Source of the DNA: Gammaproteobacteria bacterium
Lineage (GTDB): Bacteria > Pseudomonadota > Gammaproteobacteria > Steroidobacterales > Steroidobacteraceae
NCBI GenBank assembly: GCA_030831085.1
Contig: JAURLT010000063.1
Location: 1-42,061 of the forward strand
Reading direction: 5' to 3'
DNA: 42,061 nucleotides
In this document: piece by piece, positions 2 through 36,368 of the stretch
How positions within the stretch are numbered: position 1 is the stretch's first letter
Layout: each line of letters begins with the position of its first letter
The notes under the pieces: generated by a model
Databases searched by the model: none
The model's input: the letters and a program-made list of their open reading frames with translations, nothing else
Told to the model about the DNA's origin: nothing
Program-made: the position numbers and the translations under genes

Positions 2-835
2 CCCTTCGACGAGGAGCAGGCCATGCCGCCAGAAGTGCGAGCCAACCTGGAGCGCAGTTACGGGCTCGACGCGCCGCTGCACGAGCAGTTCCTGCGTTAC
101 CTTGGGGGACTGCTGCAAGGTGATTTCGGCCCATCATTCACATTCAAGGATTACAGCGTTAGCGAACTCATTGCCGAGGGCTTACCGACCAGCGCGGCGC
201 TCGGTGGCGCCGCTCTGCTGTTGGCTATCCTCGCAGGGATTCCACTCGGGCTGGCTGCGGCGCTGCAGGCTCGCGGATGGCTGGATCGGCTGGCCATGGG
301 CTTCGCAGTCGGGGGCATTGCCCTGCCGGTGTTCGTCATCGGTCCGCTGCTGGTACTCGTGTTTGGGGTCTATCTCGACCTGGTGCCGGTAGCAGGCTGG
401 GCGGAGGACGCCTGGCTGGACCGGATCCTGCCAACGGTCACCCTGGCCCTGCCGATCATTGCCTACCTTGCAAGGTTGACCCGAGGCAGCGTCCTCGAGG
501 TGTTGCAGTCCCCCTTCGTGCTGGCCGCAAAGGCGAGAGGCGTATCCCGTCGTAGCCTGATCCTCCGACATGTCCTGCCAGCGGCCATGGTGCCGGTCAT
601 CGGCTATCTCGGACCCGCCAGTGCAGCCATCCTGACCGGCTCCCTGGTGGTCGAAATCCTGTTCGGCATCCCCGGGATCGGGCGGCACCTCGTCATGGGC
701 GCCCTGAACCGCGACTACACGCTGGTCATGGGCATGGTCATTCTTTACGCCAGCAGCATGATCCTAGCCAACCTGGTCGCAGACCTAGGCTGCGCGGCGG
801 TTGATCCGCGGATCCGCCTGGGCAGGCGTCGATGA
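2..835 (+). CDS. oppB: Peptide/nickel-type ABC transporter permease, first subunit (5' partial)
   Basis: Inner-membrane permease of an Opp/Dpp/Nik-type ABC importer, which would form the channel with the next gene. The reading frame is open to the left edge: before the first visible ATG (23) it already reads family-like residues, followed by PPEVRANLERSYGLD, a stretch typical of the periplasmic region after the first membrane helix in OppB/DppB. The true start is therefore outside the window. Several hydrophobic segments follow, and the ABC-contacting EAA-type loop is visible as ARGVSRRSLILRHVLP (about residues 180-195 of the visible part), with the usual GSLVVEILFGIPGIG segment near the C-terminus. 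The stop overlaps the next start by 4 bases (ATGA), so the genes are translationally coupled. The substrate cannot be read from the permease; peptide and nickel are both possible. Confidence 0.9.
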   Translation, partial: PFDEEQAMPPEVRANLERSYGLDAPLHEQFLRYLGGLLQGDFGPSFTFKDYSVSELIAEGLPTSAALGGAALLLAILAGIPLGLAAALQARGWLDRLAMGFAVGGIALPVFVIGPLLVLVFGVYLDLVPVAGWAEDAWLDRILPTVTLALPIIAYLARLTRGSVLEVLQSPFVLAAKARGVSRRSLILRHVLPAAMVPVIGYLGPASAAILTGSLVVEILFGIPGIGRHLVMGALNRDYTLVMGMVILYASSMILANLVADLGCAAVDPRIRLGRRR

Positions 836-1689
836 GCCGCGACCGCTCCCTGTGGGCCGAGTCCCTCAATCGACTGCTGCACAATCCCGCGGCCGTGGCT
901 AGCCTGATCATTCTGTCCACCATGATCATGGCCGCCGTGATTGGTCCATGGCTCAGCCCGCACGAGTCAGAAGTCCTTGACTGGTCGATGATGGGCGCGC
1001 CACCAGACCTGCTTTCTGGTCACTGGATGGGTACCGACCGTCTTGGGCGCGATCTGCTGGTGCGCACCCTTGAAGGCACGCGGATTTCTTTACTGATTGC
1101 GGTAGCCGCAGCCATGGTCAGCCTGGTGCTGGGTACCGTGTGGGGCGCGGTTGCCGGTTACTCACGCGGCCTGACCGACAGCTTGATGATGCGCGGGGTC
1201 GACGTGTTGTTTGCCATGCCTACCCTGTTTTTCGTCATCCTCCTGACCACCTTGTTCAGTCGCAGCCCCCTCCTGCTCATCGCCTGCATCGGCTTGACCG
1301 GCTGGCTGACCGTCGCACGGGTGGTGCGCAGTGAGACTCTGGCGCTTGCCAGTCGTGAGTTCATCGAGGCCTCGGTGGCGTGCGGTGCAAGCCCTGCGGG
1401 AGTAGTGTTCCGCCACCTCATTCCCAACCTCGCAGGTACCGTGGTGACCTACGCCACGCTGCTCATCCCGCAGATGATCCTGGTTGAGAGCTTCCTGAGC
1501 TTCCTTGGCATCGGTGTACAGGAACCCGCCTCCAGTCTCGGCAACCTGATCGCAGAGGGCGCGGCCGAACTGGATGCCGCTCCGTGGATGCTGGTTGGTC
1601 CAGCTGCTTGCCTCGTACTGTTGGTGTTCTGTTTCAATTATCTGGGTGATGGCTTACGGGACGCCCTCGATCCGAGGCGCCGCCGGTGA
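832..1689 (+). CDS. oppC: Peptide/nickel-type ABC transporter permease, second subunit
   Basis: Second inner-membrane permease (285 residues) of the same importer, DppC/OppC/NikC type. It has the family N-terminal cytoplasmic stretch and first helix (about residues 20-40), then GTDRLGRDLLVRTLEGTRIS, the conserved start of the permease core in this subfamily. The EAA-like loop appears as EASVACGASPAGVVFRHLIP and the C-terminus has ESFLSFLGIGVQEP and [16 protein letters not shown], both hallmark OppC segments. The ATG overlaps the upstream stop by 4 bases, and the stop overlaps the GTG of the next gene by 4 bases. Length is normal. Assignment to the family is firm; the substrate is not known. 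Confidence 0.92.
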   Translation: MSRDRSLWAESLNRLLHNPAAVASLIILSTMIMAAVIGPWLSPHESEVLDWSMMGAPPDLLSGHWMGTDRLGRDLLVRTLEGTRISLLIAVAAAMVSLVLGTVWGAVAGYSRGLTDSLMMRGVDVLFAMPTLFFVILLTTLFSRSPLLLIACIGLTGWLTVARVVRSETLALASREFIEASVACGASPAGVVFRHLIPNLAGTVVTYATLLIPQMILVESFLSFLGIGVQEPASSLGNLIAEGAAELDAAPWMLVGPAACLVLLVFCFNYLGDGLRDALDPRRRR

Positions 1690-2663
1690 GCCTGTTTGAG
1701 GTCCGTGGGCTGTCAGTCAGCTTCAGCACTCCCCAAGGGAGCGTGGAGGCAGTGCGTGGCGTCTCTTTCGAACTCTCCCCCGGCGAATCGCTGACCATCG
1801 TAGGTGAATCAGGCTCCGGCAAGAGCCAGACCCTGCTTGGCGCTCTGGGACTGCTGGCAAACAACGGACGGGTGACCGCGGGGCACTGTGTGTTCGCCGG
1901 GCGTGAACTCGACTGCGGTCCGTCGGCAGAGGAGCTGCTCGGGAGTCGACTCGGTTATATCCCGCAGGATGCGATGGGCTGCCTGACGCCTCACCTTCGC
2001 CTCGGCACCCAACTGGGCGAATTGCTGATGCGCCACCGCGGTCTGGGTGCCGATGCAGCCCGGCGCGAGGCGCGTGAGTTGCTGGCGCGGGTGAGACTGC
2101 CCGATCCGGACTCCCGGCTCGACCGATACCCGCACGAACTGTCGGGCGGACAGCGACAGCGCGTGGCCATCGCGGCGGCACTGGCCGGCCAACCCGCCGT
2201 ACTTATTGCGGATGAGCCCACCACCGCTCTCGACGTCACGGTCCAAGCCCAGATTGTCGCGCTGCTCAGGGACCTCCAGGACCAGCAGGGCCTCGCCCTG
2301 GTCACGATAACTCACGACCTGGGGGTGGTCGCGGCCCTTGGGGGTCGTGTCATGGTCATGTACGCCGGGCAGGTAGTGGAGGAAGGTCTGGTCCGGGAGG
2401 TCTTCACGCAGCCCGCCCATCCCTACACGGCGGCCTTGCTAGCGGCTCGGCCGGCAGCCGGGGCGAAAAATACGGGTCCGATGCCGACCATTCCCGGCAG
2501 CCCGCCGCAGCCCGGATCGCTGAGTCAGGGGTGTGCGTTCGCCTCCCGTTGCCCGAGCGCCAGAGAGGAATGTCGTCACGAAGTACCCATGCGCGTCGGG
2601 GCGCGCCGGCAAATTCGCTGCCACTACCCGTTGATTGACCAGCCCTGGCAGGGCATACAGTGA
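1686..2663 (+). CDS. oppD: Peptide/nickel-type ABC transporter ATP-binding protein, OppD-like
   Basis: Cytoplasmic ATPase that powers the importer (325 residues, GTG start overlapping oppC by 4 bases). Walker A is GESGSGKS with the lysine at residue 46, the ABC signature is LSGGQRQR, and Walker B with its glutamate is [12 protein letters not shown], followed by the switch histidine in ITHDLGVV. The C-terminal oligopeptide-transporter extension is present and carries the cysteine-containing [15 protein letters not shown] segment typical of OppD/DppD, a region linked to an iron-sulfur cluster in some DppD proteins. All catalytic residues look intact. The partner ATPase is the next gene, again overlapping by 4 bases. 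Confidence 0.92.
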
Positions 2664-3682
2664 GTGCGATGCTCCAGGCACTCGACATCGAGGTGGGCTT
2701 TCCCCTTGGGCAAGGCTGGTCTCGACGTACGGTCTTGCGCGCCCTGCGAGGCGTATCGGTCACGGTGGCGCAAGGCGAGACGGTAGGGATTGTCGGAGAG
2801 TCAGGGTGCGGAAAGAGCACTCTTGCGCGGGTCCTGCTGGGGCTCATCGAGCCCGATTCAGGGCAGGTCCTGCTCGAAGGACGGTCCGTCTCACACCGCC
2901 ACCCTGCCGCACTCCGGCAGCTGAGGCGAAGCGTGCAGATGGTGTTTCAGGATCCGCGGGGGAGCCTTGACCCCCGTCTGACCATCCGCGAATCCATCGC
3001 CGAGCCGCTGCGCTGCCTGCGACCCGAAGTATCGGCCAGGGAGCACCGCACACTTATCGGGCGAACCCTGGAGCAGGTCGGCCTGGACCGCGAGCTCGCG
3101 TCTCGCTACCCGCACGAACTCAGCGGGGGGCAGTGCCAGCGGGCCGGCATCGCTCGCGCCCTGGTGGCGGGACCCGCATGCCTGGTCTGCGACGAACCGG
3201 TGAGCGCGCTCGACCTGTCAATACAGGGCCAGATCGTCAACCTGCTTGCGGACCTTCGCCGGGAGATCGGGGTCGGCGTCCTGTTCATCAGTCACAATCT
3301 ATCGGTGGTCCGTCACCTCTGCGACCGGGTGCTGGTTATGCACCTTGGCCAGGTGGTGGAGGAGGGAAGCGCCGCGGCGGTATTAAGCACTCCACGCCAT
3401 CCCTATACAAAATTGTTGTTGAGCTCGGAGTTGCTGGCGGAACCTGGACGGCCGTTGCCGGTGCTCCCGGACGGCGAGCCCGCCTCGCCACTGTCACCGC
3501 CCACGGGTTGCAGCTTCGTGGGGCGCTGCCCCGTCGTGATGGAGACCTGCCATCACGAACCACCGCTGATGAATCAGGATACGGTTGGGCACTCGCTACG
3601 CTGTCACCGCTGGCCCGACTCCACCAACTCGACCCATTCGCCCGCCATGCCCCGCAACACCGCCGCGCGTCGTCCCAAATAG
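2660..3682 (+). CDS. oppF: Peptide/nickel-type ABC transporter ATP-binding protein, OppF-like
   Basis: Second cytoplasmic ATPase of the importer (340 residues, GTG start). Walker A is GESGCGKST (lysine 52), the Q-loop region reads MVFQDPRGSLDPR as in OppF/DppF, the signature is LSGGQCQR, Walker B is CLVCDEPVSALD, and the switch histidine lies in FISHNLSVV. The C-terminal GCSFVGRCPVVMETC segment matches the peptide-transporter extension. The last 79 bases overlap the 3' end of the convergent VOC-like gene; the C-terminal tail encoded there (residues after about 314) is low-complexity and basic, consistent with a drifting stop codon. No terminator is visible between the two convergent genes. 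Confidence 0.91.
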   Translation: MSAMLQALDIEVGFPLGQGWSRRTVLRALRGVSVTVAQGETVGIVGESGCGKSTLARVLLGLIEPDSGQVLLEGRSVSHRHPAALRQLRRSVQMVFQDPRGSLDPRLTIRESIAEPLRCLRPEVSAREHRTLIGRTLEQVGLDRELASRYPHELSGGQCQRAGIARALVAGPACLVCDEPVSALDLSIQGQIVNLLADLRREIGVGVLFISHNLSVVRHLCDRVLVMHLGQVVEEGSAAAVLSTPRHPYTKLLLSSELLAEPGRPLPVLPDGEPASPLSPPTGCSFVGRCPVVMETCHHEPPLMNQDTVGHSLRCHRWPDSTNSTHSPAMPRNTAARRPK

Positions 3683-4497
3683 GGGGCTTCAGAGTGTCGG
3701 GTCGGCCCCGGGTGTTCCAGGCCAGTAATGCGGCCCAGGTCCTTCACAGTGAAGGTCACCATGGCGATGCCTGGGGGCAGTTCGCCCGGCTCGACCTTGC
3801 GGGGCCCGGACCCGGTCGGATACTCGTCGATCTCGACGAGGAAGTCGGCTGGAAAGCGCACGACCGCCAGGGGAAATTGCCGTTCAGGGTCCATGTCCCA
3901 CTCGCGGGCCAGCACTGAGATCGTGGAGGGTGCCGGCTCGGTAACCGGCATGCCCAGTTGTCGCGCGTAGAACTGCCGCATGGAGTCCATGTCGGGTCCA
4001 CCGAGGACAACTATAAAGGTCCGGTCGATCGGCGCCTCGGCCGTCCCGAGGTTGAACAGTGAGCGTCCCGGCGGGATCCTGGTCAGGTAGATGAGTTCGC
4101 CCGCAGGGCCGATGGCCTGCATGGCGATTACCTCCGGGTTCATGGACAGTCCGCGCGGCTCGCCGATAACCGCGAATGCCGAGTTTTCCAGCCTCCCCAA
4201 AGTCTCTAGGGGGTCCTGAATGAGGATCTCATTGGAATTCCAGCCCCAGCTGCGCATGGCGCGGTACCCCGCGGCGGAAGGCTGGTGGATGATGCGCAAG
4301 AACACGTCGCGGCCTCCGGCCGGGCGCAGCAGCAGCCATTCCCGTCCCTCGACGGCCACCGCCTGCCACGCACGAGCCAGCTGGCGACTCACCACACCAC
4401 GGGCCTCAACCGTGAATCCAAGGGTGTCGACGTAGGCGCGCTCCATCGCCACCAGGTCGGGCACTGCGAGCGTGACCGTCAAGATGCCCGTCAACAT
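3604..4497 (-). CDS. Two-half VOC (glyoxalase/dioxygenase) fold protein
   Basis: A 297-residue protein that reads as two consecutive VOC-type halves. The first begins LTVTLAVPDLVAMERAYVDT with a following LGF, the classic first strand and helix of a VOC module; the second begins TFIVVLGGPDMDSMRQFYAR with LGMPV. This arrangement is seen in glyoxalase I-like and extradiol dioxygenase-like proteins. A full metal-binding His/Glu set is not obvious, so it may be a non-catalytic or divergent member. The ATG at 4497 has a purine-rich AGGGGG about 8 bases upstream. It points into and overlaps the 3' end of oppF. Enzymatic role and substrate are unknown. Confidence 0.75.
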   Translation of the reverse strand: MLTGILTVTLAVPDLVAMERAYVDTLGFTVEARGVVSRQLARAWQAVAVEGREWLLLRPAGGRDVFLRIIHQPSAAGYRAMRSWGWNSNEILIQDPLETLGRLENSAFAVIGEPRGLSMNPEVIAMQAIGPAGELIYLTRIPPGRSLFNLGTAEAPIDRTFIVVLGGPDMDSMRQFYARQLGMPVTEPAPSTISVLAREWDMDPERQFPLAVVRFPADFLVEIDEYPTGSGPRKVEPGELPPGIAMVTFTVKDLGRITGLEHPGPTRHSEAPYLGRRAAVLRGMAGEWVELVESGQR

Positions 4498-4583: not shown

Positions 4584-5300
4584 ATGACCGGTGGCGATCT
4601 GTTACTGTGGACAGCTGTTTCGATTGGCTTCATCCATACCCTGCTGGGTCCAGACCATTACCTGCCGTTTGTTGCCATGCGACGCGCGCGAGGCTGGACC
4701 ACGGCCCGAATGGTGGCTGCAGTCTGCGGCTTCGGCGCAGCGCACGTGTCCGCCTCTGCGGCGCTCGGTTTGGTCGGCATCGCATTCGGTGTCGCCCTGG
4801 GGCGGATGGAGGGCCTGCAGCACCTGCGTGGGGAGGTGGCGGCCTGGCTATTGCTCGGGGCCGGCTTGGCCTACGGCATCTGGGGCATCCGTCGGGCGAG
4901 GCAGGCGGTCCCTCACAGTCACGCCCACGTGCATGCCGACGGCACGGTTCACACCCATCCGCACGCACATATTGCCGCCACCCACCGCCATGCGCATGCC
5001 AAGGCGGGGCGCTGGGGCCCTTGGCTGATCTTCATCGTGTTCCTGCTCGGGCCCTGCGAGGCTCTGATACCGGTCCTGATGTACCCCGCCGCGCAGTCGG
5101 ACTGGCATACTGTGGGTGTGGTCGCGGTTGCCTTTGCGGCGGCGACCATCATCACCATGGTGGTGGTGACCCTGGTCGCGGATCGCCTGCTGGGCGGCCT
5201 GCTCGAGCGTGCAGTGCGCGGCCGGCAGGACTGGTCTCACGCGCTGGCAGGAGGCACAATAGCTTTATGCGGTGCCGGGATCCTGGTACTGGGACACTAG
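4584..5300 (+). CDS. NicO/TauE-like membrane protein with histidine-rich loop
   Basis: A 238-residue integral membrane protein with about six hydrophobic segments. Helix I carries HTLLGPDH (H18, D24, H25), resembling the histidine-aspartate-histidine signature used by nickel/cobalt transporters of the NicO/RcnA and UreH-like groups; a second polar membrane motif is GPCEALIPVLMYP (about 156-168). Between the halves, residues 111-138 hold 11 histidines in HxH-type repeats, a likely cytosolic or periplasmic metal-binding loop. I prefer ATG 4584 to an in-frame ATG at 4521: GGGAG lies a few bases upstream and the protein then begins directly with a membrane helix. Transition-metal (nickel, cobalt or zinc) movement is inferred; TauE-like anion export is the alternative. 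Confidence 0.8.
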   Translation: MTGGDLLLWTAVSIGFIHTLLGPDHYLPFVAMRRARGWTTARMVAAVCGFGAAHVSASAALGLVGIAFGVALGRMEGLQHLRGEVAAWLLLGAGLAYGIWGIRRARQAVPHSHAHVHADGTVHTHPHAHIAATHRHAHAKAGRWGPWLIFIVFLLGPCEALIPVLMYPAAQSDWHTVGVVAVAFAAATIITMVVVTLVADRLLGGLLERAVRGRQDWSHALAGGTIALCGAGILVLGH

Positions 5301-5313
5301 TGGAGGCCTGCAA

Positions 5314-5568
5314 ATGAAATCTATTCGCCACACCCGCAGCCGTGAAGCCGTGCGCTGGCTCAAGGCCGAAATTGCCGACCAGAAGAAGCGCTACCGCAAG
5401 ATCGTTGCCGAACAGGATGCGCTGGCGCCCAAGCGCGAGAAATGGGTAGCCGCCTTCCTGCAACGCATCCAGACCAAGGGCTTCAATGTGCACGCGGACA
5501 TCCGCAGGGTGATCCCACCCGAGGAAATCCCGACCAAGCCCCGGCGCAAGTTCCGCGTGATGTTCTAG
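5314..5568 (+). CDS. Small basic helical protein of unknown function (84 residues)
   Basis: Short gene 13 bases after the NicO-like gene. The ATG at 5314 has GGAGG about 6 bases upstream, which decides it over an in-frame ATG at 5272 inside the previous gene. The product is rich in Lys, Arg and Glu, with no signal peptide or membrane helix. Residues about 8-45 look like one long amphipathic helix (KAEIADQKKRYRKIVAEQDA), possibly a coiled coil, followed by a basic tail ending KPRRKFRVMF. I do not recognise the family. Tight spacing to genes on both sides suggests co-transcription with the histidine-rich transporter and the cupin protein. It could be a nucleic-acid- or protein-binding partner; that is conjecture. 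Confidence 0.75.
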   Translation: MKSIRHTRSREAVRWLKAEIADQKKRYRKIVAEQDALAPKREKWVAAFLQRIQTKGFNVHADIRRVIPPEEIPTKPRRKFRVMF

Positions 5569-5589
5569 GCCCGGACAGCAGGAGGCCCC

Positions 5590-6552
5590 ATGGCACGTCC
5601 ACACATCGAACCTTACGTTGAGACCCGGACACCCTGGAAGAGGATGACCTTGCCCGGCTTCCGCAAGGGCATGCGTTACAAGATGCTCTCGCTGGATACC
5701 GACACCGGCGCATGCTCCATGAAGGTTATGTTCGAGCCAGGGTACTCGCTGCCGCCGGGTATGAGCTATTCCGAGATGGAGTTGTTTGTCCTGTCGGGAT
5801 CCCTAGTGGTGGGGGACAAGACCCACGTCGCGGGCCACTACTTTTTCGTGCCAGCCGGCGTGACCCTGCCGGCGCTCTCGGCGCCGCGGGGTGCCCAGGT
5901 GCTGATGTTTTACAACTACGGTGAGCCGAGTTTCGTGGAGTCGGACTCTGACCATCCGCGAGCTGAGCGCGACCAGTTCGCCTCGGTCAACGCCTACGAG
6001 AACCTGGCCTGGACCTCGACCAGCTTCTATCCGGCGACGGCCGCCGGTTGCCTGGTCAAGGTGCTGCGCTTCGACCAGCGCTCACAGGCCTTCACCTTTC
6101 TTTACTGCATGACACCGAATTTTTCCCAGGACAACATTAGCTACCACGACTGCGCCGAGGAGTCTTACCACATCTGGGGCACCTCCTGGATGATGCAATT
6201 CGGCGACCTGCCCACCGGCGGTTACTTCTGGCGGCCGCCTTACATCAACCATGGGGCATTCGCATGCAAGTACGGCACCATCGCACTCGGCCGTACTGAC
6301 TCCCAGCTGTATAACCACTTCCACTTCAATCCGTGGACCACGCCTGAAGAAAACCTCGAGAGGGCGGCCAGCCGGATTCAGCACTGGAAGCCAGACCTCT
6401 ACAAGTGGGTGGCGACCGGCGATCACAACCATCCGGTGGACTTCGAGTATCCGGGTGACCATGGACACGACCATGGCGATGCCCCGCATCACCACGGCGA
6501 CCACGACTTGCATCACAGTCACGCCCCCAAGCGCCGTCGACGCCGGAAGTAG
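5590..6552 (+). CDS. Double-cupin protein with histidine-rich C-terminal tail
   Basis: A 320-residue soluble protein with two cupin-like barrels. The first (about residues 35-115) has MELFVLSG and GHYFFVPAGVTLPA in the right places but lacks the usual metal-binding histidines. The second (about 155-245) keeps candidate ligands: H186, E190/E191 and H194 in YHDCAEESYH, and H221 in WRPPYINHGAF. The tail from 279 to 311 has 12 histidines mixed with Asp and Gly, then a run of basic residues to the end. AGGAGG sits just upstream of the ATG. The tail parallels the histidine-rich loop of the membrane protein two genes upstream, suggesting a shared metal-handling role. Substrate and metal are unknown; a dioxygenase, isomerase or metal-storage protein are all possible. 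Confidence 0.8.
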   Translation: MARPHIEPYVETRTPWKRMTLPGFRKGMRYKMLSLDTDTGACSMKVMFEPGYSLPPGMSYSEMELFVLSGSLVVGDKTHVAGHYFFVPAGVTLPALSAPRGAQVLMFYNYGEPSFVESDSDHPRAERDQFASVNAYENLAWTSTSFYPATAAGCLVKVLRFDQRSQAFTFLYCMTPNFSQDNISYHDCAEESYHIWGTSWMMQFGDLPTGGYFWRPPYINHGAFACKYGTIALGRTDSQLYNHFHFNPWTTPEENLERAASRIQHWKPDLYKWVATGDHNHPVDFEYPGDHGHDHGDAPHHHGDHDLHHSHAPKRRRRRK

Positions 6553-6561
6553 GGGCCCGGG

Positions 6562-7812
6562 GTGAAGGTCCAGGCGAGCTCCAGCCTCGCCAACGTCCGC
6601 TATGAAATCCGGGGCCGGCTCGCACGCCGCGCCCAGGAGCTCGAGCGCATGGGCTTCGAGATCACCTCCCTCAACATCGGCAATCCCGGCGCCTTTGGCT
6701 TCCGCACCCCGGAGACCATGCGGATCGCCATGATCGAGAACATGCGCGCTGCAGAGGGCTACTGTCACCAGAAGGGCATCTTCCCGGCTCGGGAGGCGGT
6801 GGTCATGCAGCAGCAGTCCCGCGGGGTGCTTGATGTCACTGCCGAGGACGTTTTTATCGGCAACGGAGTCAGTGAACTGATCGATCTCGTGCTCAGGGCC
6901 TTGTTGGAGCGCGGGGACGAGGTGCTGGTGCCGAGTCCCGATTACCCCCTCTGGAGCGCCGCGGTCAACCTAAACGGCGGCAAGGCCGTGCACTATCCCT
7001 GCCGACCGGAACGCGGTTTCGAGCCCGATCCAACTGAGATCGCGCGGCTGGTCACCCCCCGCACCAGGGCGATCGTGGTGATCAATCCCAACAATCCGAC
7101 TGGAGCAGTCTATCGTCGGGACACCCTGGAGGGCCTGGCGCGGCTCGCAGAGCGCCACAATCTGGTGGTCTTTGCCGACGAAATTTACGACGGCATGACT
7201 TATGAGGGCGCTGAGTTCATCCCGATGGCGACGGTCGCATCCGGGAGCCTGTGCGCAACCTTCTCTGGCCTGTCGAAGGTCTATCGGGCCTGTGGCTACC
7301 GGGTAGGCTGGGTCTCCTTCTCCGGCGTGCGCGCGGAGGCAGGAGACTACCTACAGGGCCTTGAGCTGTTGAGCTCGCTGCGCCTGTGCAGTAATGCCCT
7401 CGGACAGTGGGCGGTGCAGACGGCCCTTGGGGGGTACCAAAGTATCCAGGACCTGGTCAATCCGGGGGGCCGGCTGTACGAGTCGCGCAAGGCGGTCATC
7501 GAGGCCGTAGCACGCAGCCGCTTTCTGGAACTGGAGGCGCCGAGGGGTGCGATGTACGCCTTCCTGCGAGTCCGCGATGAATCGCTGCCAGGCTTTGATG
7601 ACCAGTCCTTTGCCCTGGAACTGCTTGAGCAGAAGCACGTGCTGGTCGCGCCGGGCAGCAGCTTCAACACGCCCTACAGCAATCATTTCCGCATCACCCT
7701 GCTGCCCCTCCCGGACACACTGGAGTCGGTGCTCGCCCGAATCGAGGAACAACTGGAAACGATGGCTGAGCGCAAGCAGGCCAAGCCGGGGAGCCTCAGG
7801 GTCGTCCTATGA
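6562..7812 (+). CDS. PLP-dependent aminotransferase, class I/II, AlaA-like
   Basis: Cytoplasmic fold-type I aminotransferase of 416 residues. Visible landmarks are YCHQKGIFPAREAV and GNGVSELIDL near the cofactor pocket, INPNNPTGAVY (substrate/PLP-binding), FADEIYDGM (the Asp that contacts the pyridine nitrogen) and FSGLSKVYRACGYRVGW with the Schiff-base lysine at residue 239. The arrangement resembles glutamate-pyruvate aminotransferase AlaA and related enzymes. The start is GTG, 9 bases after the cupin stop, with a weak GGGG upstream. It probably shares a transcript with the cupin and small-protein genes. Amino donor and acceptor cannot be settled from sequence alone; alanine/glutamate is the best guess. 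Confidence 0.88.
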   Translation: MKVQASSSLANVRYEIRGRLARRAQELERMGFEITSLNIGNPGAFGFRTPETMRIAMIENMRAAEGYCHQKGIFPAREAVVMQQQSRGVLDVTAEDVFIGNGVSELIDLVLRALLERGDEVLVPSPDYPLWSAAVNLNGGKAVHYPCRPERGFEPDPTEIARLVTPRTRAIVVINPNNPTGAVYRRDTLEGLARLAERHNLVVFADEIYDGMTYEGAEFIPMATVASGSLCATFSGLSKVYRACGYRVGWVSFSGVRAEAGDYLQGLELLSSLRLCSNALGQWAVQTALGGYQSIQDLVNPGGRLYESRKAVIEAVARSRFLELEAPRGAMYAFLRVRDESLPGFDDQSFALELLEQKHVLVAPGSSFNTPYSNHFRITLLPLPDTLESVLARIEEQLETMAERKQAKPGSLRVVL

Positions 7813-30515: not shown

Positions 30516-31706
30516 CTAGCCGAGTGGCACCCTGACTTTTCCTTCCATCAGGATGCGCGCCGAGCGGCTCATGACCGCACGGGTGGCCACCCACTGGTCT
30601 CCGACCCGCTCAACGCTTGCCCCCACCCGCAGGGTGCCCGAAGGGTGCCCGAATACCACCTCGGACCGGGATGCCCCGCCCGCCGCGCGGCTCACCACGG
30701 TGCCTGGCACAGCGGCGGCCGTGCCGATCGCGACTGCCGCTGTGCCCATCATCGCGTGATGAAGTTTGCCCATGGACAGGGCACGGACCAGCAGGTCGAC
30801 TTCGCAAGCGGTCACTCGACGGCCGCTGGAGGCCAGATACTCCCGGGGAGCGGAGACAAAGGCCACCTTCGGTGTATGCAGCCGCGATGCCGCCTCGTCC
30901 AGGCTCTTGATCAGCCCCATCCGCAGGGCGCCAGCCGCCCGGATCGCCTCGAAGCGCTGGAGCGCTGCAGGGTCGCCATTGATGTCTTCCTGCAGCTCGG
31001 TGCCCGTGTACCCCAATTCTTCCGCGGCCACGAAGACTGTCGGGATACCCGCATTGATCAGCGTGACCTCGAAGTGGCCAAGGCCAGGGACTTCCAGCCT
31101 TTCAACGGTGTGTCCGGTCGGGAACAGGCTCGCCGGCCCGTCACTGACCTCTTCGGGACCCGGATCGAGAAACTCGAGCTTGATCTCCGCGGCCGGAAAG
31201 GTGACTCCGTCCAGTTCGAAGTCGCCGGTCTCCTGAACCTGTCCATCTCGAATCGGCACATGGGCAACGATGGTCTTGCCGATGTTCTCCTGCCAGATCC
31301 GGATCACGGCCGTGCCGTCTGTGGGCAGCCGACTGGCTGGAATCACTCCTGCAGCGATCGCGAATGGCCCCACTGCGGCGGATAGGTTGCCGCAGTTGCC
31401 GCTCCAATCCACGAAGGGACGATCGATGGAGACCTGCCCAAAAAGGTAGTTCACGTCATGGTCCGGTCGCTCGCTCGGCGACAGGATGGCCGCCTTGCTG
31501 GTACTGGAGGTGGCCCCCCCCATCCCGTCGATCTGCTTGCCGTAGGGGTCCGGGCTCCCCATGAGCCTGAGCAACAGCCGGTCCCGATCAGGGCCGGGTG
31601 CCCGGGCCGACACGGGCAGGTCCTCCAGGCGAAAAAACACGCCCTTGCTGGTACCGCCACGCATGTAAGTGGCGGCCACGGCGATCTGCGGGGGTGGGGT
31701 GTTCAC
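30516..31706 (-). CDS. prpF: AcnD-accessory protein PrpF
   Basis: A 396-residue cytoplasmic protein of the PrpF/diaminopimelate epimerase-like fold, needed for the AcnD route of methylcitrate breakdown, where it isomerises the aconitate product. Key segments are TYMRGGTSKGVFFR near the N-terminus, DGMGGATSSTSKAAI, and VDWSGNCGNLSAAVGPFAI, which holds the conserved Cys. I choose GTG 31706, one base after the acnD stop, because the longer frame to 31832 lies within acnD and its product is unlike PrpF. Last gene of the operon. Confidence 0.93.
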   Translation of the reverse strand: MNTPPPQIAVAATYMRGGTSKGVFFRLEDLPVSARAPGPDRDRLLLRLMGSPDPYGKQIDGMGGATSSTSKAAILSPSERPDHDVNYLFGQVSIDRPFVDWSGNCGNLSAAVGPFAIAAGVIPASRLPTDGTAVIRIWQENIGKTIVAHVPIRDGQVQETGDFELDGVTFPAAEIKLEFLDPGPEEVSDGPASLFPTGHTVERLEVPGLGHFEVTLINAGIPTVFVAAEELGYTGTELQEDINGDPAALQRFEAIRAAGALRMGLIKSLDEAASRLHTPKVAFVSAPREYLASSGRRVTACEVDLLVRALSMGKLHHAMMGTAAVAIGTAAAVPGTVVSRAAGGASRSEVVFGHPSGTLRVGASVERVGDQWVATRAVMSRSARILMEGKVRVPLG

Positions 31707-31707
31707 C

Positions 31708-34305
31708 CTACGCCACCCTGGCCTGATCAAGGAAGTCCCGCGCGAAACGTTGCAGCACCCCGCCGGCTTCGTAGATCGAGACCTCTTCGGCGGTGTCCAG
31801 TCGGCAGGTGACGACCACGTCGAGTGTGTCACCCGAGCGGCGATGGATCCGGAGCGTCAGGTCACAGCCGGGCGTCCTGTCGCCCAGTACATCAAAGGTC
31901 TCCCTGCCATCCAGGCCCAGGGAGGTCCTGCTGCTGCCTGGCTTGAACTCCAGCGGCAGCACGCCCATCCCGACCAGGTTGGTGCGATGGATCCGCTCGA
32001 AGCCCTCGGCCACGATGGCCTCGACGCCGGCCAGCCGTACGCCCTTCGCCGCCCAGTCGCGCGAAGAGCCCTGGCCATATTCAGCGCCAGCAACCACGAT
32101 CAGAGGTTGACCACGGTCCATGTAGGTCTCGATGGCCTCCCACATGCGCATGACCTTGCCTTCCGGTTCGAGGCGCGCCAGGGACCCGGAGCGCACGTCG
32201 CCATCGACGACTGCCATCTCATTTCTAAGCGTCGGGTTGGCGAAGGTCGCGCGCAAAGCGGTGAGGTGGTCGCCGCGATGAGTCGCGTAGGAATTGAAGT
32301 CCTCCTCCGGCAGGCCCATGCGGGCCAGGTATTCGCCCGCCGCGCTGTCAGCGAGGATGGCATTGGACGGGGAGAGGTGGTCCGTGGTGATGTTGTCACC
32401 GAGGATGGCGAGCGGTCGCATCCCCCTGAGGGTCCGCTCACCGGCCAGGGCCCCTTCCCAATAAGGGGGGCGGCGGATGTAGGTACTGCGAGGCCTCCAC
32501 TCATACAGCGGGCTGGAGGCCAGCGATGCGCCTTCCAGACGGGCCTTGAACATGGGCTCATAGACGGAGCGGAACTGCTCGGGCTTCACGCAGCGGGCGA
32601 CGATGGCATCGATCTCGGCATCGCTGGGCCAGATGTCCGCAAGGCACACGGGCCGACCGTCGGCATCGTGGCCCAGCGGATCGCGCTCGATGTCGACACG
32701 GATGGTGCCCGCAATCGCATAGGCGATGACCAGCGGTGGCGAGGCCAGGAAAGCCTGCCGGGCGAGGGGGTGAATGCGCCCGTCGAAGTTGCGGTTACCC
32801 GACAGCACGGCCGTGGTGTAAAGCTTCCTGCGGATGATCTCGTCACGAATGGCGGGCTCCAGGGCGCCAGACATGCCGTTACAGGTCGTGCAGGCAAAAC
32901 CCACGATTCCGAAACCTAGCCGTTCAAGTTCCTCGAGCAGTCCCGCCTCCTGCAGATAGATCTCGACCGTCCGTGATCCCGGTGCAAGCGAACTCTTGAC
33001 CCAGGGTTGTCGCATGAGGCCCAGGCGATTGGCATTCCTGGCCAACAGGCCGGCGGCTACCACGTTACGGGGATTGCTGGTGTTAGTGCAGCTGGTAATG
33101 GCGGCAATGATGACGGCCCCATCGGGCATCAGGCCTGGCTCCTCCTGCCACGGTGCAGCGATGCCCCGCTGGGTCAGATCGGTGGTGGCCACGCGGGCAT
33201 GAGGCCGCGACGGACCGGCCACGTTACGAACAACGCTACTGAGGTCAAACTGGAGGTCGCGATCGTAACGTGCATCCTTCAGGGTGTCGGCCCACAGGCC
33301 TGCCGCACGCGCATAGCGCTCGACGAGGGCTACCTGGGCCGGATCGCGACCGGTCAGGCGCAGGTAGTCGAGCGTCTGGTCGTCGATGGCGAACAGCGCT
33401 GCCGTGGCCCCGTATTCGGGCGCCATATTGGAAATGGTGGCGCGATCGCCAAGCGTCAGGGCGACTGCACCTTCGCCGTGGAATTCAAGCCAGGCGGACA
33501 CGACCCCTGCCTTGCGCAGGAACTCGGTCAGCGCAAGCACGATATCCGTTGCAGTAATGCCGGGTGCCGGTCTGCCGATGAGCTTGACGCCAATGGACTC
33601 CGGCAGGCGCATCCAGGAGGCGCGCCCCAGCATGACGTTTTCGGCCTCCAGGCCGCCGACGCCGATGGCAATCACCCCGAGCGCATCCACGTGCGGCGTA
33701 TGGCTGTCCGTTCCCACCAGCGTGTCGGGGAAGGCCACCCCGTCCTGCGCATGCACCACGGGCGACATTCGCTCCAGGTTGATCTGGTGCATGATGCCGT
33801 TACCTGGGGGGATTACGTCCACGTTGCGAAAGGCCTTGCGGCACCACTCGATGAAGTGGAAGCGATCCTCGTTACGACGCGCCTCGATGGCCTCGTTCTT
33901 TTCCCGTGCCTGAGGGTCGGCCCCGCCGCACTCCACGGCGAGGGAATGGTCGACGATCAACTGGACCGGCACCACTGGGTTGACCTGCGCTGGATCGCCA
34001 CCGGCGTCCGCGATCGCGTCCCGCAAGCCAGCCAGGTCCACCAGCGCGGTCTGGCCAAGAATGTCGTGGCACACCACCCGGGCCGGAAACCACGGAAAAT
34101 CGCGATCCCGACGGCGGTCGATCAACTGCAGGAGGCATTCATCGAGAATGGCCGGATCGCAGCGGCGGAGGAGGTTTTCAGCCAGCACCCTGGACGAGTA
34201 GGGAAGGGTGGTCCAGGCCCCCGGGCGTAGCGCCTCCGCGGCCTCACGCGCATCAAACCATTCCAGGCTGGTTGATGGGAGGGGCTTCCGAAACCGGCTG
34301 TTCAT
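31708..34305 (-). CDS. acnD: 2-methylcitrate dehydratase, Fe-S dependent
   Basis: Aconitase-family enzyme (865 residues) that dehydrates 2-methylcitrate to 2-methylaconitate in the cytoplasm. The 4Fe-4S ligands are C406 in SCTNTSNP and C472 and C475 in CTTCNG. Other marks are VGTDSHTPHVDALGVI, GVGGLEAENVMLG, and in the swivel domain GAEYGQGSSRDWAAKGVRL with the substrate-binding arginine. The ATG at 34305 has GAGGTTGAT at a good distance; an in-frame TTG three codons upstream is less likely. It sits between prpC and prpF, the usual arrangement of the AcnD/PrpF variant that replaces PrpD. Confidence 0.95.
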   Translation of the reverse strand: MNSRFRKPLPSTSLEWFDAREAAEALRPGAWTTLPYSSRVLAENLLRRCDPAILDECLLQLIDRRRDRDFPWFPARVVCHDILGQTALVDLAGLRDAIADAGGDPAQVNPVVPVQLIVDHSLAVECGGADPQAREKNEAIEARRNEDRFHFIEWCRKAFRNVDVIPPGNGIMHQINLERMSPVVHAQDGVAFPDTLVGTDSHTPHVDALGVIAIGVGGLEAENVMLGRASWMRLPESIGVKLIGRPAPGITATDIVLALTEFLRKAGVVSAWLEFHGEGAVALTLGDRATISNMAPEYGATAALFAIDDQTLDYLRLTGRDPAQVALVERYARAAGLWADTLKDARYDRDLQFDLSSVVRNVAGPSRPHARVATTDLTQRGIAAPWQEEPGLMPDGAVIIAAITSCTNTSNPRNVVAAGLLARNANRLGLMRQPWVKSSLAPGSRTVEIYLQEAGLLEELERLGFGIVGFACTTCNGMSGALEPAIRDEIIRRKLYTTAVLSGNRNFDGRIHPLARQAFLASPPLVIAYAIAGTIRVDIERDPLGHDADGRPVCLADIWPSDAEIDAIVARCVKPEQFRSVYEPMFKARLEGASLASSPLYEWRPRSTYIRRPPYWEGALAGERTLRGMRPLAILGDNITTDHLSPSNAILADSAAGEYLARMGLPEEDFNSYATHRGDHLTALRATFANPTLRNEMAVVDGDVRSGSLARLEPEGKVMRMWEAIETYMDRGQPLIVVAGAEYGQGSSRDWAAKGVRLAGVEAIVAEGFERIHRTNLVGMGVLPLEFKPGSSRTSLGLDGRETFDVLGDRTPGCDLTLRIHRRSGDTLDVVVTCRLDTAEEVSIYEAGGVLQRFARDFLDQARVA

Positions 34306-34316
34306 GTTGATCAACC

Positions 34317-35474
34317 TCAGGCGCGCTGGTCGATGGGCAACACCTTGCGAGGCTCTGGACCCGTATAGTTGGCGCTCGGACGAATGATCTTGCCGTCCAG
34401 TCTCTGCTCAATGACATGGGCGCCCCACCCGGTGGTCCGGGCAATGACAAACAGCGGCGTGAACATGGCGGTGGGCACCCGCATCATGTGATAGGAGACA
34501 GCACTGAACCAGTCCAGGTTCGGGAACATCTTCTTGATGTCCCACATGACCGTCTCCAGGCGTTCGGCGATGTCGTACATGCGGGTGTCGCCCGCTTCCT
34601 CGGCTAGCTGCCGGGCGACGCGCTTGATGACCGCATTGCGCGGATCGCCAATGGTGTAGACCGGGTGGCCGAAGCCGATGACCACTTCCTTGCGTCCCAC
34701 CCGCTCCCGAATGTCGGCTTCCGCCTCGTCAGGATTTCCGTAACGCTGCTGAATGTCGAAAGCGACTTCGTTGGCGCCTCCGTGCTTGGGGCCCCGCAGG
34801 GCGCCGATCGCGCCCGTGATGCAGGAGAACATATCGGAGCCCGTGCCGGCAATGACCCGCGCCGTGAAGGTCGATGCGTTGAACTCGTGCTCGGCATACA
34901 AGATAAGCGATGTGTGCATGGCCCTGACCCAGCTGGCTGGCGCCGGCCGACCGTGCAGCAGGTGCAGGAAATGACCACCCACGGAGTCATCATCGGTATC
35001 GATTTCGATCCGCACACCCCTCTGGCTGTAGTGATACCAGTAACAGAGCATGGAGCCCAGAGAGGCGACCAGCCGGTCAATGATCTCCCGCGCTCCAACA
35101 ACGTCATGGTCGTCCTTCTCGGGCATGGCGCAGCCCAGGGCCGAGACGCCCGTCCGCATGACGTCCATGGGGTGCGCAGAGGCTGGCAGGTGCTCGAGGA
35201 CCGCCATGACCGATGCAGGAATGCCCCTCAGTCCGCGCAGGTGCGCTTTGTAGGCGGCGAGCTCGGCCGAATTGGGCAACGTGCCGTGGACCAGAAGGTG
35301 CGCGACCTCCTCGAATTCGCAGCTTTCAGCGATGTCGAGAATGTCGTAACCCCGGTAGTGAAGATCATTCCCGGACCGACCTACGGTACACAACGCTGTA
35401 TTGCCGGCCGCCACGCCCGAAAGGGCCACCGATTTCTTGGGCTTGGGCAGCGTCGATTCTGTCGGGTTACTCAT
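34317..35474 (-). CDS. prpC: 2-methylcitrate synthase
   Basis: Citrate-synthase-family enzyme (385 residues) that joins propionyl-CoA with oxaloacetate. The N-terminal [20 protein letters not shown] and [20 protein letters not shown] are typical of methylcitrate synthases. Active-site regions are [36 protein letters not shown] and [15 protein letters not shown]. The small size and lack of an NADH-binding N-terminal domain separate it from the TCA enzyme. It lies 9 bases after prpB and 11 before acnD. Confidence 0.95.
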
Positions 35475-35483
35475 CTCATCCCC

Positions 35484-36368
35484 TCACTTGCGGTCACGTG
35501 AAAACAACTCGTCGAGTTTCTTCTCGTAGTCGTGGTAACCAAGCACTTCATACAACTCTGCGCGCGTCTGCATGCGGTCGAGCACAGGCTTCTGGGTACC
35601 CTCCCGGCGGAGGGTGCCGTACACCTCCAGCGCGGCCTTGCTCATGGCGCGGAAGGCAGAGAGCGGGTACAGGACCAGTCCCACGCCGGCGGAGGCCAAA
35701 TCTTCTACGGTAAACAGGGGTGTCTTGCCGAACTCGGTAATGTTGGCCAGCACCGGCACCGGGACGGCGCTGGTGAACTGCCTATATTCGTCAAGGGTGG
35801 CGAGGGCCTCGGCAAAGATCATGTCAGCGCCGGCCTCCACGTAGGCCAAGGCCCGATCCACCGCTGCCTGCTGACCCTCCACGGCGTGGGCATCCGTGCG
35901 GGCCATGACCACGAAGCCCTCGTCAGTACGTCCGTCCACTGCCGCCTTCAGCCGATCGACCATCTCGGCGCAGGACACCAACTCCTTGCCGGGCCGATGC
36001 CCGCAGCGTTTGGCCTGCACCTGGTCCTCCAGATGCATCCCCGCTGCTCCCGAGCGAATGAGGTCGCGGCAGGTCCGTTCGATGTTGAAGGCGGCACCCC
36101 ATCCTGTATCCGCATCCACGAGCAGGGGCAACTCGGTGGCCGAACAGATCCGGCGGACATCCTCGCAGACGTCGTTCAGCATGGTGATGCCCAGGTCCGG
36201 GAGTCCGAACGAGGCATTGGCGACGCCCGCACCCGACAAGTAAAGGGCACGAAAGCCGCTGCGCTCCGCCAGCAGCGCGCTGAAGGCGTTGACCGCGCCA
36301 ACCACCTGCAAGGGCACTTCTTCCTTGACCGCCGCACGTAACTTCTCGCCTGGCGATATGATTTTCAT
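35484..36368 (-). CDS. prpB: 2-methylisocitrate lyase
   Basis: Cleaves 2-methylisocitrate to pyruvate and succinate (294 residues, isocitrate-lyase/PEP-mutase fold). The catalytic loop is [12 protein letters not shown] with Cys122, next to the E. coli position (C123). Metal-binding DADTGWG and [10 protein letters not shown] are present, as is [18 protein letters not shown]. It is the first gene of the prp operon as read here. No strong ribosome site precedes the ATG. Confidence 0.95.

Follow-up and report, generated by a model that had tools for sequence, protein, structure and literature searches.

A 42,061-bp stretch of DNA (the window, which is the whole of contig C14 of genome G000; 2.52 Mb, 181 contigs, 89% complete) encodes a DUF4437 double cupin (bicupin) next to an 84-residue basic protein, and our results show that this small protein, not the neighbouring transporter or aminotransferase, is the constant partner of the cupin. 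The two very probably form a functional unit, and many uncultured bacteria carry them together. A first-pass annotation of this DNA, which had linked the cupin to a histidine-rich transporter and to the aminotransferase, missed both this partner and the co-occurrence of an amidohydrolase and a CoA-transferase described below. The closest named relatives are metagenome-assembled genomes labelled Steroidobacteraceae or Gammaproteobacteria. The three genes discussed first are listed here, with the basis of each assignment in brackets.

5314..5568, plus strand: 84-residue basic protein of an unnamed family, constant partner of the cupin (locus and genome co-occurrence)
5590..6552, plus strand: DUF4437 bicupin with a candidate second-barrel site (H186/E190/H194/H221), HNH at residues 279-281 and a histidine-rich, basic-ended tail (Pfam, AlphaFold2 (AF2) model, conservation)
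4584..5300, plus strand: UreH/NicO-like membrane protein with a histidine-rich loop, probable nickel permease found in a minority of loci (locus linkage, hydrogenase co-occurrence)

The small basic protein accompanies the cupin across genomes and loci

Co-occurrence was counted over 98 related genomes (G; 45 genera), and gene order over 81 loci (L), namely the window and the best 80 of 211 confirmed loci. The two sets overlap (L057/G003, L059/G004, L089/G002), so counts over both are not independent. The cupin search of the 98 genomes gave a clear break between the subfamily (at least 57% identity) and its paralogues (at most 38%), and placed the subfamily in 23 of 98 genomes and 13 of 45 genera; in G002 the gene is broken up by contig ends, and G025 has an incomplete copy. 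A profile made from 18 small-protein copies at cupin loci found the small protein in the identical 23 genomes, both proteins being missing from the other 75 (Fisher 7e-23). Counted by genus, the only way in which kinship was handled, the association is 13/13 versus 0/32 (p 1.4e-11). By reading of the match lists, the small gene adjoins 24 of the 26 subfamily cupin loci in these genomes, the exceptions being G061:C344 and G086:C1:1067888; in G086 one small gene adjoins a CoA-transferase and an amidohydrolase gene instead.

The same pairing is seen at the level of loci. The profile detects the small protein in 70 of the 81, always on the cupin's strand, and by alignment ends it lies 16-92 bases upstream of the cupin in 68 of these 70; the two exceptions are L102, where the cupin alignment is partial, and L122, where the distance is 265 bases. 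Four of the 11 loci without it offer little or no upstream sequence: L077, L087 and L094 start within the cupin or at its edge, and L119 has just 293 bases before it. At L055 (G025:C2), a partial small protein (residues 1-43) continues in frame into a partial cupin (4-147), a fused or decayed pair. The window's small protein has a computed isoelectric point of 11.4 and no Pfam or NCBIfam match above cut-off, and its profile gives only weak matches against the PDB (best E 0.043) and likewise against Pfam.

The gene calls are well supported. The first-pass annotation had four plus-strand genes spaced by 9-21 bases, and both the coordinates and the gaps (13, 21 and 9 bases, from transporter to aminotransferase) agree. 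Its residue counts are exact as well: the transporter has 11 histidines within residues 111-138 and the membrane motif H18-x5-D24-H25 (HxxxxxDH), and the cupin has 12 histidines within residues 279-311 and the four second-barrel residues listed above. Equally dense histidine clusters arose in 0 of 20,000 residue shuffles for either protein. When the small gene, the transporter, the cupin core and the cupin tail are compared with a close relative, third codon positions carry an excess of the differences in each, which supports translation of all of them. By eye, GGAGG-like sites precede the small gene and the cupin gene, and GGGAG precedes the transporter. A promoter scan returned no promoter-like site, and a terminator scan returned one terminator-like site, fewer than in shuffles.

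The cupin has a candidate metal site in its second barrel and a histidine-rich tail

The cupin matches DUF4437 at 73.1 bits (cut-off 24) and Cupin_7 at 54.2 bits (cut-off 27). The AF2 model of residues 1-283, computed from a 76-row alignment, has a mean predicted local distance difference test score (pLDDT) of 91.5; a model built earlier on 22 close orthologues reached pLDDT 61.2 and was discarded as poor. Among solved structures the model fits 2QDR best (Z 29, 242 residues at 1.8 A, covering residues 1-249), followed by ChrR (3O14, Z 21.5), DUF861 proteins and quercetinases. 2QDR is Npun_F5605, a structural-genomics 'putative dioxygenase' with the same bicupin fold. It is also the best PDB sequence match (E 7.9e-13) but is only 20% identical to the window cupin, and no functional paper on it was found in the literature searched, in which subscription journals are mostly uncovered.

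The alignment (A4) holds 50 of the 81 subfamily cupins and 26 paralogues; the other subfamily cupins were omitted as near-copies or truncated, and the L141 paralogue because of an internal stop. All 76 sequences share H186, E190, E191 and H221, in keeping with the metal site that the first-pass annotation had proposed for the second barrel. H194 behaves differently, being present in 50/50 subfamily cupins versus 0/26 paralogues. S184, H245, H279 and H281 are also found in 50/50 subfamily cupins, and position 184 is glutamate in 19 of the 26 paralogues. In their spacing (H186-x3-E190-x6-G197 and P216-x4-H221) these residues follow the classical cupin motifs, with the first histidine of HxH replaced, and the first barrel, inspected by eye, is without the classical histidine ligands. 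Because H186, E190 and H221 are conserved even in paralogues, a metal site in the second barrel looks common to the whole DUF4437 family, and one metal-ligand position appears to have been exchanged within this subfamily. The composition of H186, E190, H194 and H221 fits a possible 3His/1Glu set, with H194 as a putative ligand. Such sets also serve iron and manganese cupins. Nickel cupin oxygenases exist, and the nickel quercetinase QueD of Streptomyces is a cupin with a reported 3His/1Glu metal set; the abstract on QueD mentions neither a small partner nor a histidine-rich tail (PMC4416304).

The tail was counted in 78 of the 81 cupins; L089 and L090 (truncated) were left out, as was L133, whose end has no histidine after HNH. 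At least four histidines follow HNH in 71 of 78 tails, as the first-pass annotation's picture of a histidine-tailed cupin implies, and a basic run closes 40 of the 78. Histidine makes up 21.8% of tail residues versus 3.9% of the cupin core. Since the paralogues in the alignment were trimmed to the matched stretch, they are uninformative on the tail; the seven with flanks (L024-L030) have 0-2 histidines in the C-terminal extension and no HNH. The tail sequence differs among lineages while its composition is kept, comparable to the metal-collecting tails of some nickel chaperones. A search of a plasmid collection with the cupin returned six records at 28-31% identity, which indicates paralogues only.

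Amidohydrolase and CoA-transferase genes probably belong to a wider module

Outside the window's own branch of the cupin tree, many loci have genes for a class-III CoA-transferase (PF02515) and an Amidohydro_2 protein (PF04909) next to the pair. At 45% or greater identity to the L060 copies, the CoA-transferase is found in 31 and the amidohydrolase in 13 of the 81 loci. Genome-wide, the amidohydrolase is present at E<=1e-60 in 22/23 cupin genomes versus 4/75 others, and at the stricter E<=1e-140, chosen post hoc where the match list has a gap, in 19/23 versus 3/75; for the CoA-transferase the counts are 18/23 versus 4/75. In the window's genome the two genes lie together on another contig (G000:C83:8941-11016), which also carries an isochorismatase-like gene and genes for a TonB receptor, MaoC, an acyl-CoA dehydrogenase and HpcH/HpaI. 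Three loci (L124, L129, L136) hold an unbroken row of transporter, amidohydrolase, CoA-transferase, small protein and cupin, and the complete five-gene row in L136 belongs to an isolate, Exilibacterium tricleocarpae. Taken together, the bicupin, the small protein, the amidohydrolase and the CoA-transferase are likely to constitute one four-gene pathway.

The closest solved relative of the amidohydrolase is the uncharacterised 3IRS (E 4.9e-21). Among weaker relatives, with E values of roughly 1e-9 to 1e-6, are 4-oxalomesaconate hydratase and a biphenyl meta-cleavage compound hydrolase. These enzymes work on ring-cleavage products or at later steps, and for this reason our first guess for the cupin is an oxygenolytic step. 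In four genomes a paralogous cupin lies immediately upstream of a paralogous amidohydrolase on the same strand, 119-211 bases apart by match ends (G073:C8, G084:C4, G095:C72, G097:C18), and this repeated pairing suggests consecutive steps. These DUF4437 paralogues, about 30% identical, and their PF04909 neighbours look like a second, related cupin-amidohydrolase system.

In several loci (L121, L167, L179-L184, L186) the module amidohydrolase gene and a TonB receptor gene point away from each other (two members confirmed with Pfam), and some of these loci have Thiamine_BP-like, PnuC-like and APH/choline-kinase-type genes alongside. Thiamine breakdown was considered as the substrate pathway from these neighbours and set aside; the clusters look like thiamine salvage.

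The NicO-like transporter tracks [NiFe] hydrogenase

Of the 81 loci, 11 have the transporter close to the pair. On the cupin tree (a quick tree) these 11 are spread over five places, their flanks differ, and the starred branches of the tree force at least five transporter changes (gains or losses). The link between transporter and cupin drawn by the first-pass annotation is borne out in these loci; across the 98 relatives the transporter follows [NiFe] hydrogenase and not the cupin. Of the two features that this link involved, the histidine-rich tail is common among cupin homologues and a neighbouring transporter is not.

H18, D24, H25 and loop histidines 113, 115, 123, 125, 127, 134 and 136 are invariant in 11 of 11 transporter members. 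A His..DH membrane motif together with a histidine-rich loop is the mark of the UreH/NicO family of secondary nickel transporters, and in this respect the earlier NicO-like assignment stands. It finds no counterpart in Pfam: NicO is not among the matches at E<=1 of the 11 members (HMMER filters drop most weak matches), DsbD_2 is matched in 8 of 11, and the window protein falls just below DsbD_2 (23.9 of 24.9 bits). UreH genes have been reported beside nickel-enzyme genes (PMC2667541), while the window transporter neighbours the cupin rather than an established nickel enzyme.

A [NiFe] hydrogenase is present in 11/15 transporter genomes versus 9/83 others (Fisher p 1.4e-6), and by genus in 5/6 versus 5/39 (p 0.001). 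Because the transporter tracks [NiFe] hydrogenase in relatives, the window transporter is probably a nickel permease. For a subfamily that fits no Pfam model well, this co-occurrence is a functional clue. G001, G024, G043 and G058 carry the transporter with the aminotransferase and AddB/AddA-like genes but without the small gene or cupin, and all four have the hydrogenase; in G058 a CoA-transferase lies between transporter and aminotransferase. In G055 the transporter and the cupin are on different contigs.

The transporter was also searched in the genomes of 25 of the 80 named loci (24 genomes), nine of them chosen as known transporter carriers. Not counting the window's genome and that of L089, nine linked genomes were covered, and each has one copy, located at the pair; no copy was found in the 15 other genomes. 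The L057, L059, L134 and L136 genomes hold both transporter and hydrogenase. In G098-G102 (L085, L124, L126, L129, L131), where the transporter is single and at the pair, there is no HypD match and neither [NiFe] hydrogenase nor urease scores over cut-off, the sub-threshold matches being to urease in G101 and hydrogenase in G102. If these assemblies are complete, another nickel user must exist in them, and the cupin is the obvious candidate. The window's genome, at its 89% completeness, has no hydrogenase or HypD match; for urease-alpha it gives only a partial match at 26.9 bits (cut-off 23), which spans 50 of 121 positions, and nothing at 1e-20. A search for nickel superoxide dismutase matched no genome, controls included.

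Aminotransferase, importer and other neighbours

The remaining genes around the pair are as follows, again with the basis of each call.

6562..7812, plus strand: AlaA-like alanine aminotransferase, 416 residues, neighbour probably outside the system (PDB match, gene order)
3604..4497, minus strand: two-domain VOC/glyoxalase-fold protein, divergent from the operon (Pfam Glyoxalase)
23..3682, plus strand: OppBCDF-like ABC importer genes, the first touching the contig edge, positional neighbour (library scans)

The best solved match of the aminotransferase is 4CVQ (E 1.9e-124 over 392 residues; next 2e-70), the AlaA glutamate-pyruvate aminotransferase of E. coli. PRK08363 heads its NCBIfam list at 288 bits (cut-off 534), and none of the models listed is over cut-off. 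A relative occurs in 25 of 81 loci, every one of them among the 37 rows of the cupin tree that make up the window's own branch. The gene adjoins AddB/AddA-like genes, an order that recurs without the cupin in G001, G024, G043 and G058. The aminotransferase is therefore probably a housekeeping neighbour outside the system, and the first-pass proposal that it shares a pathway with the cupin is not sustained. A single operon including it was rejected for the same two reasons, the AlaA likeness and the gene order kept without the cupin.

The first-pass annotation had placed an Opp/Nik-type importer upstream. Opp-type ABC genes are indeed there, and their permease and ATPase genes score higher for OppB/C/D/F than for NikB/C/D/E, although none of the listed models reaches its equivalog cut-off; a Nik-type nickel importer was ruled out on these scores. 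Opp-like genes also lie beside the transporter without the cupin in G001, G024 and G058, and we take both the aminotransferase and the importer as neighbours by position. The VOC/glyoxalase gene has a relative in 29 of 81 loci, and the window's branch accounts for 27 of the 29. Further along the window (30516-36368, minus strand), PrpF-like, AcnD-like, citrate-synthase-like and PrpB-like genes form a run that, by impression from the translations, resembles the methylcitrate cycle.

Discussion

From the gene linkage, genome-wide co-occurrence, residue and tail conservation and predicted fold established here, we infer a scheme for complex formation, ligand roles, reaction type, step order and metal identity. 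The C-terminal barrel of the bicupin would hold one divalent metal on H186, E190, H194 and H221, and the small basic protein may act as a cupin subunit or as a metal-loading or activating partner. The bicupin would perform an oxygenolytic or related C-C/C-N cleavage that opens the substrate, the PF04909 amidohydrolase would then hydrolyse, hydrate or decarboxylate the product, and the class-III CoA-transferase would activate the resulting acid for acyl-CoA breakdown. The histidine-rich tail may collect the metal, and where a lineage has the NicO-like permease, this would supply it; the most likely cargo of such a permease is nickel. We give this explanation as a whole a probability of about 0.5. 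That nickel is also the metal of the cupin seems doubtful to us. A fuller version, in which a two-component nickel bicupin oxygenase lost E184, gained H194, acquired the tail and the small partner, recruited a nickel permease in several lineages and opens an undescribed catabolic pathway, is unlikely to hold in all its parts.

Several observations weigh against the proposed scheme. The transporter was not detected in 70 of the 81 loci, some of which are cut short at contig ends, and over the 98 genomes it is not associated with the cupin (5/15, p 0.25). The small protein was not found beside the cupin in seven loci with upstream room (L098-L101, L103, L115, L135). The amidohydrolase and CoA-transferase genes are missing from the window locus; G003, G025, G029 and G061 have no strong amidohydrolase match, these and G055 have no CoA-transferase, and the CoA-transferase is present in four cupin-less genomes, G001, G005, G036 and G052. 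Nine loci of the window's branch have a nearby CoA-transferase of a different subfamily (three aligned members are 32-34% identical), which was excluded from the counts. Finally, linked loci were the source of the profiles used to find the small protein, transporter and amidohydrolase.

In a first alternative, the NicO-like gene could feed the [NiFe] hydrogenase and adjoin the pair by chance, with the cupin using iron or manganese like many bicupins. This is a serious contender, though we do not favour it: it accounts for the hydrogenase association by genome and by genus, for the transporter beside the aminotransferase in four cupin-less genomes that all have the hydrogenase, and for the four linked genomes that hold both genes, but it leaves unexplained why the pair has the transporter as a neighbour in five parts of the cupin tree, with different flanks, and, if the assemblies are complete, why the transporter is single and at the pair in G098-G102 with neither nickel enzyme over cut-off. 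In the reading of the first-pass annotation, the transporter would supply the cupin with its metal, and a product or substrate of the cupin would pass on to the aminotransferase; this is suggested by the tight row of four genes and by the 25 loci with an aminotransferase relative. We find it very improbable, since those loci all fall within the window's own branch, the match to AlaA far exceeds the next, and the order of aminotransferase, AddB and AddA is kept without the cupin.

The cupin could also be a ChrR-like metal-storage or metal-sensing protein and no enzyme, with the small protein as a nucleic-acid or regulatory partner. The Cupin_7/ChrR-like Pfam match, ChrR as the second-best fold, the histidine-rich tail and the very basic small protein are all compatible with such a role; the genome-wide co-occurrence with the amidohydrolase and CoA-transferase and the cupin-amidohydrolase pairing among paralogues point instead to metabolism, and no sigma factor was found among the neighbour representatives scanned, most neighbours lying outside the scan. 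We consider this role improbable, and retain the metal bicupin with its small partner as the working explanation.

No paper on DUF4437, nor on a gene set of cupin, CoA-transferase, amidohydrolase, histidine-rich tail and nickel transporter, was found in the literature searched. The enzyme folds are known; within that literature the two-gene unit, the change at the metal site and the module appear undescribed. The papers searched give DUF4437 no function, and the small protein falls outside every family named in the libraries; it is now named as a partner that may be required for cupin activity in vitro. If the metal is nickel, the cupin would join a small group of known nickel oxygenase-type enzymes and give orphan UreH-like permeases a client. 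The four-gene set travels together through Gamma- and Alphaproteobacteria and others, which gives DUF4437 a testable role.

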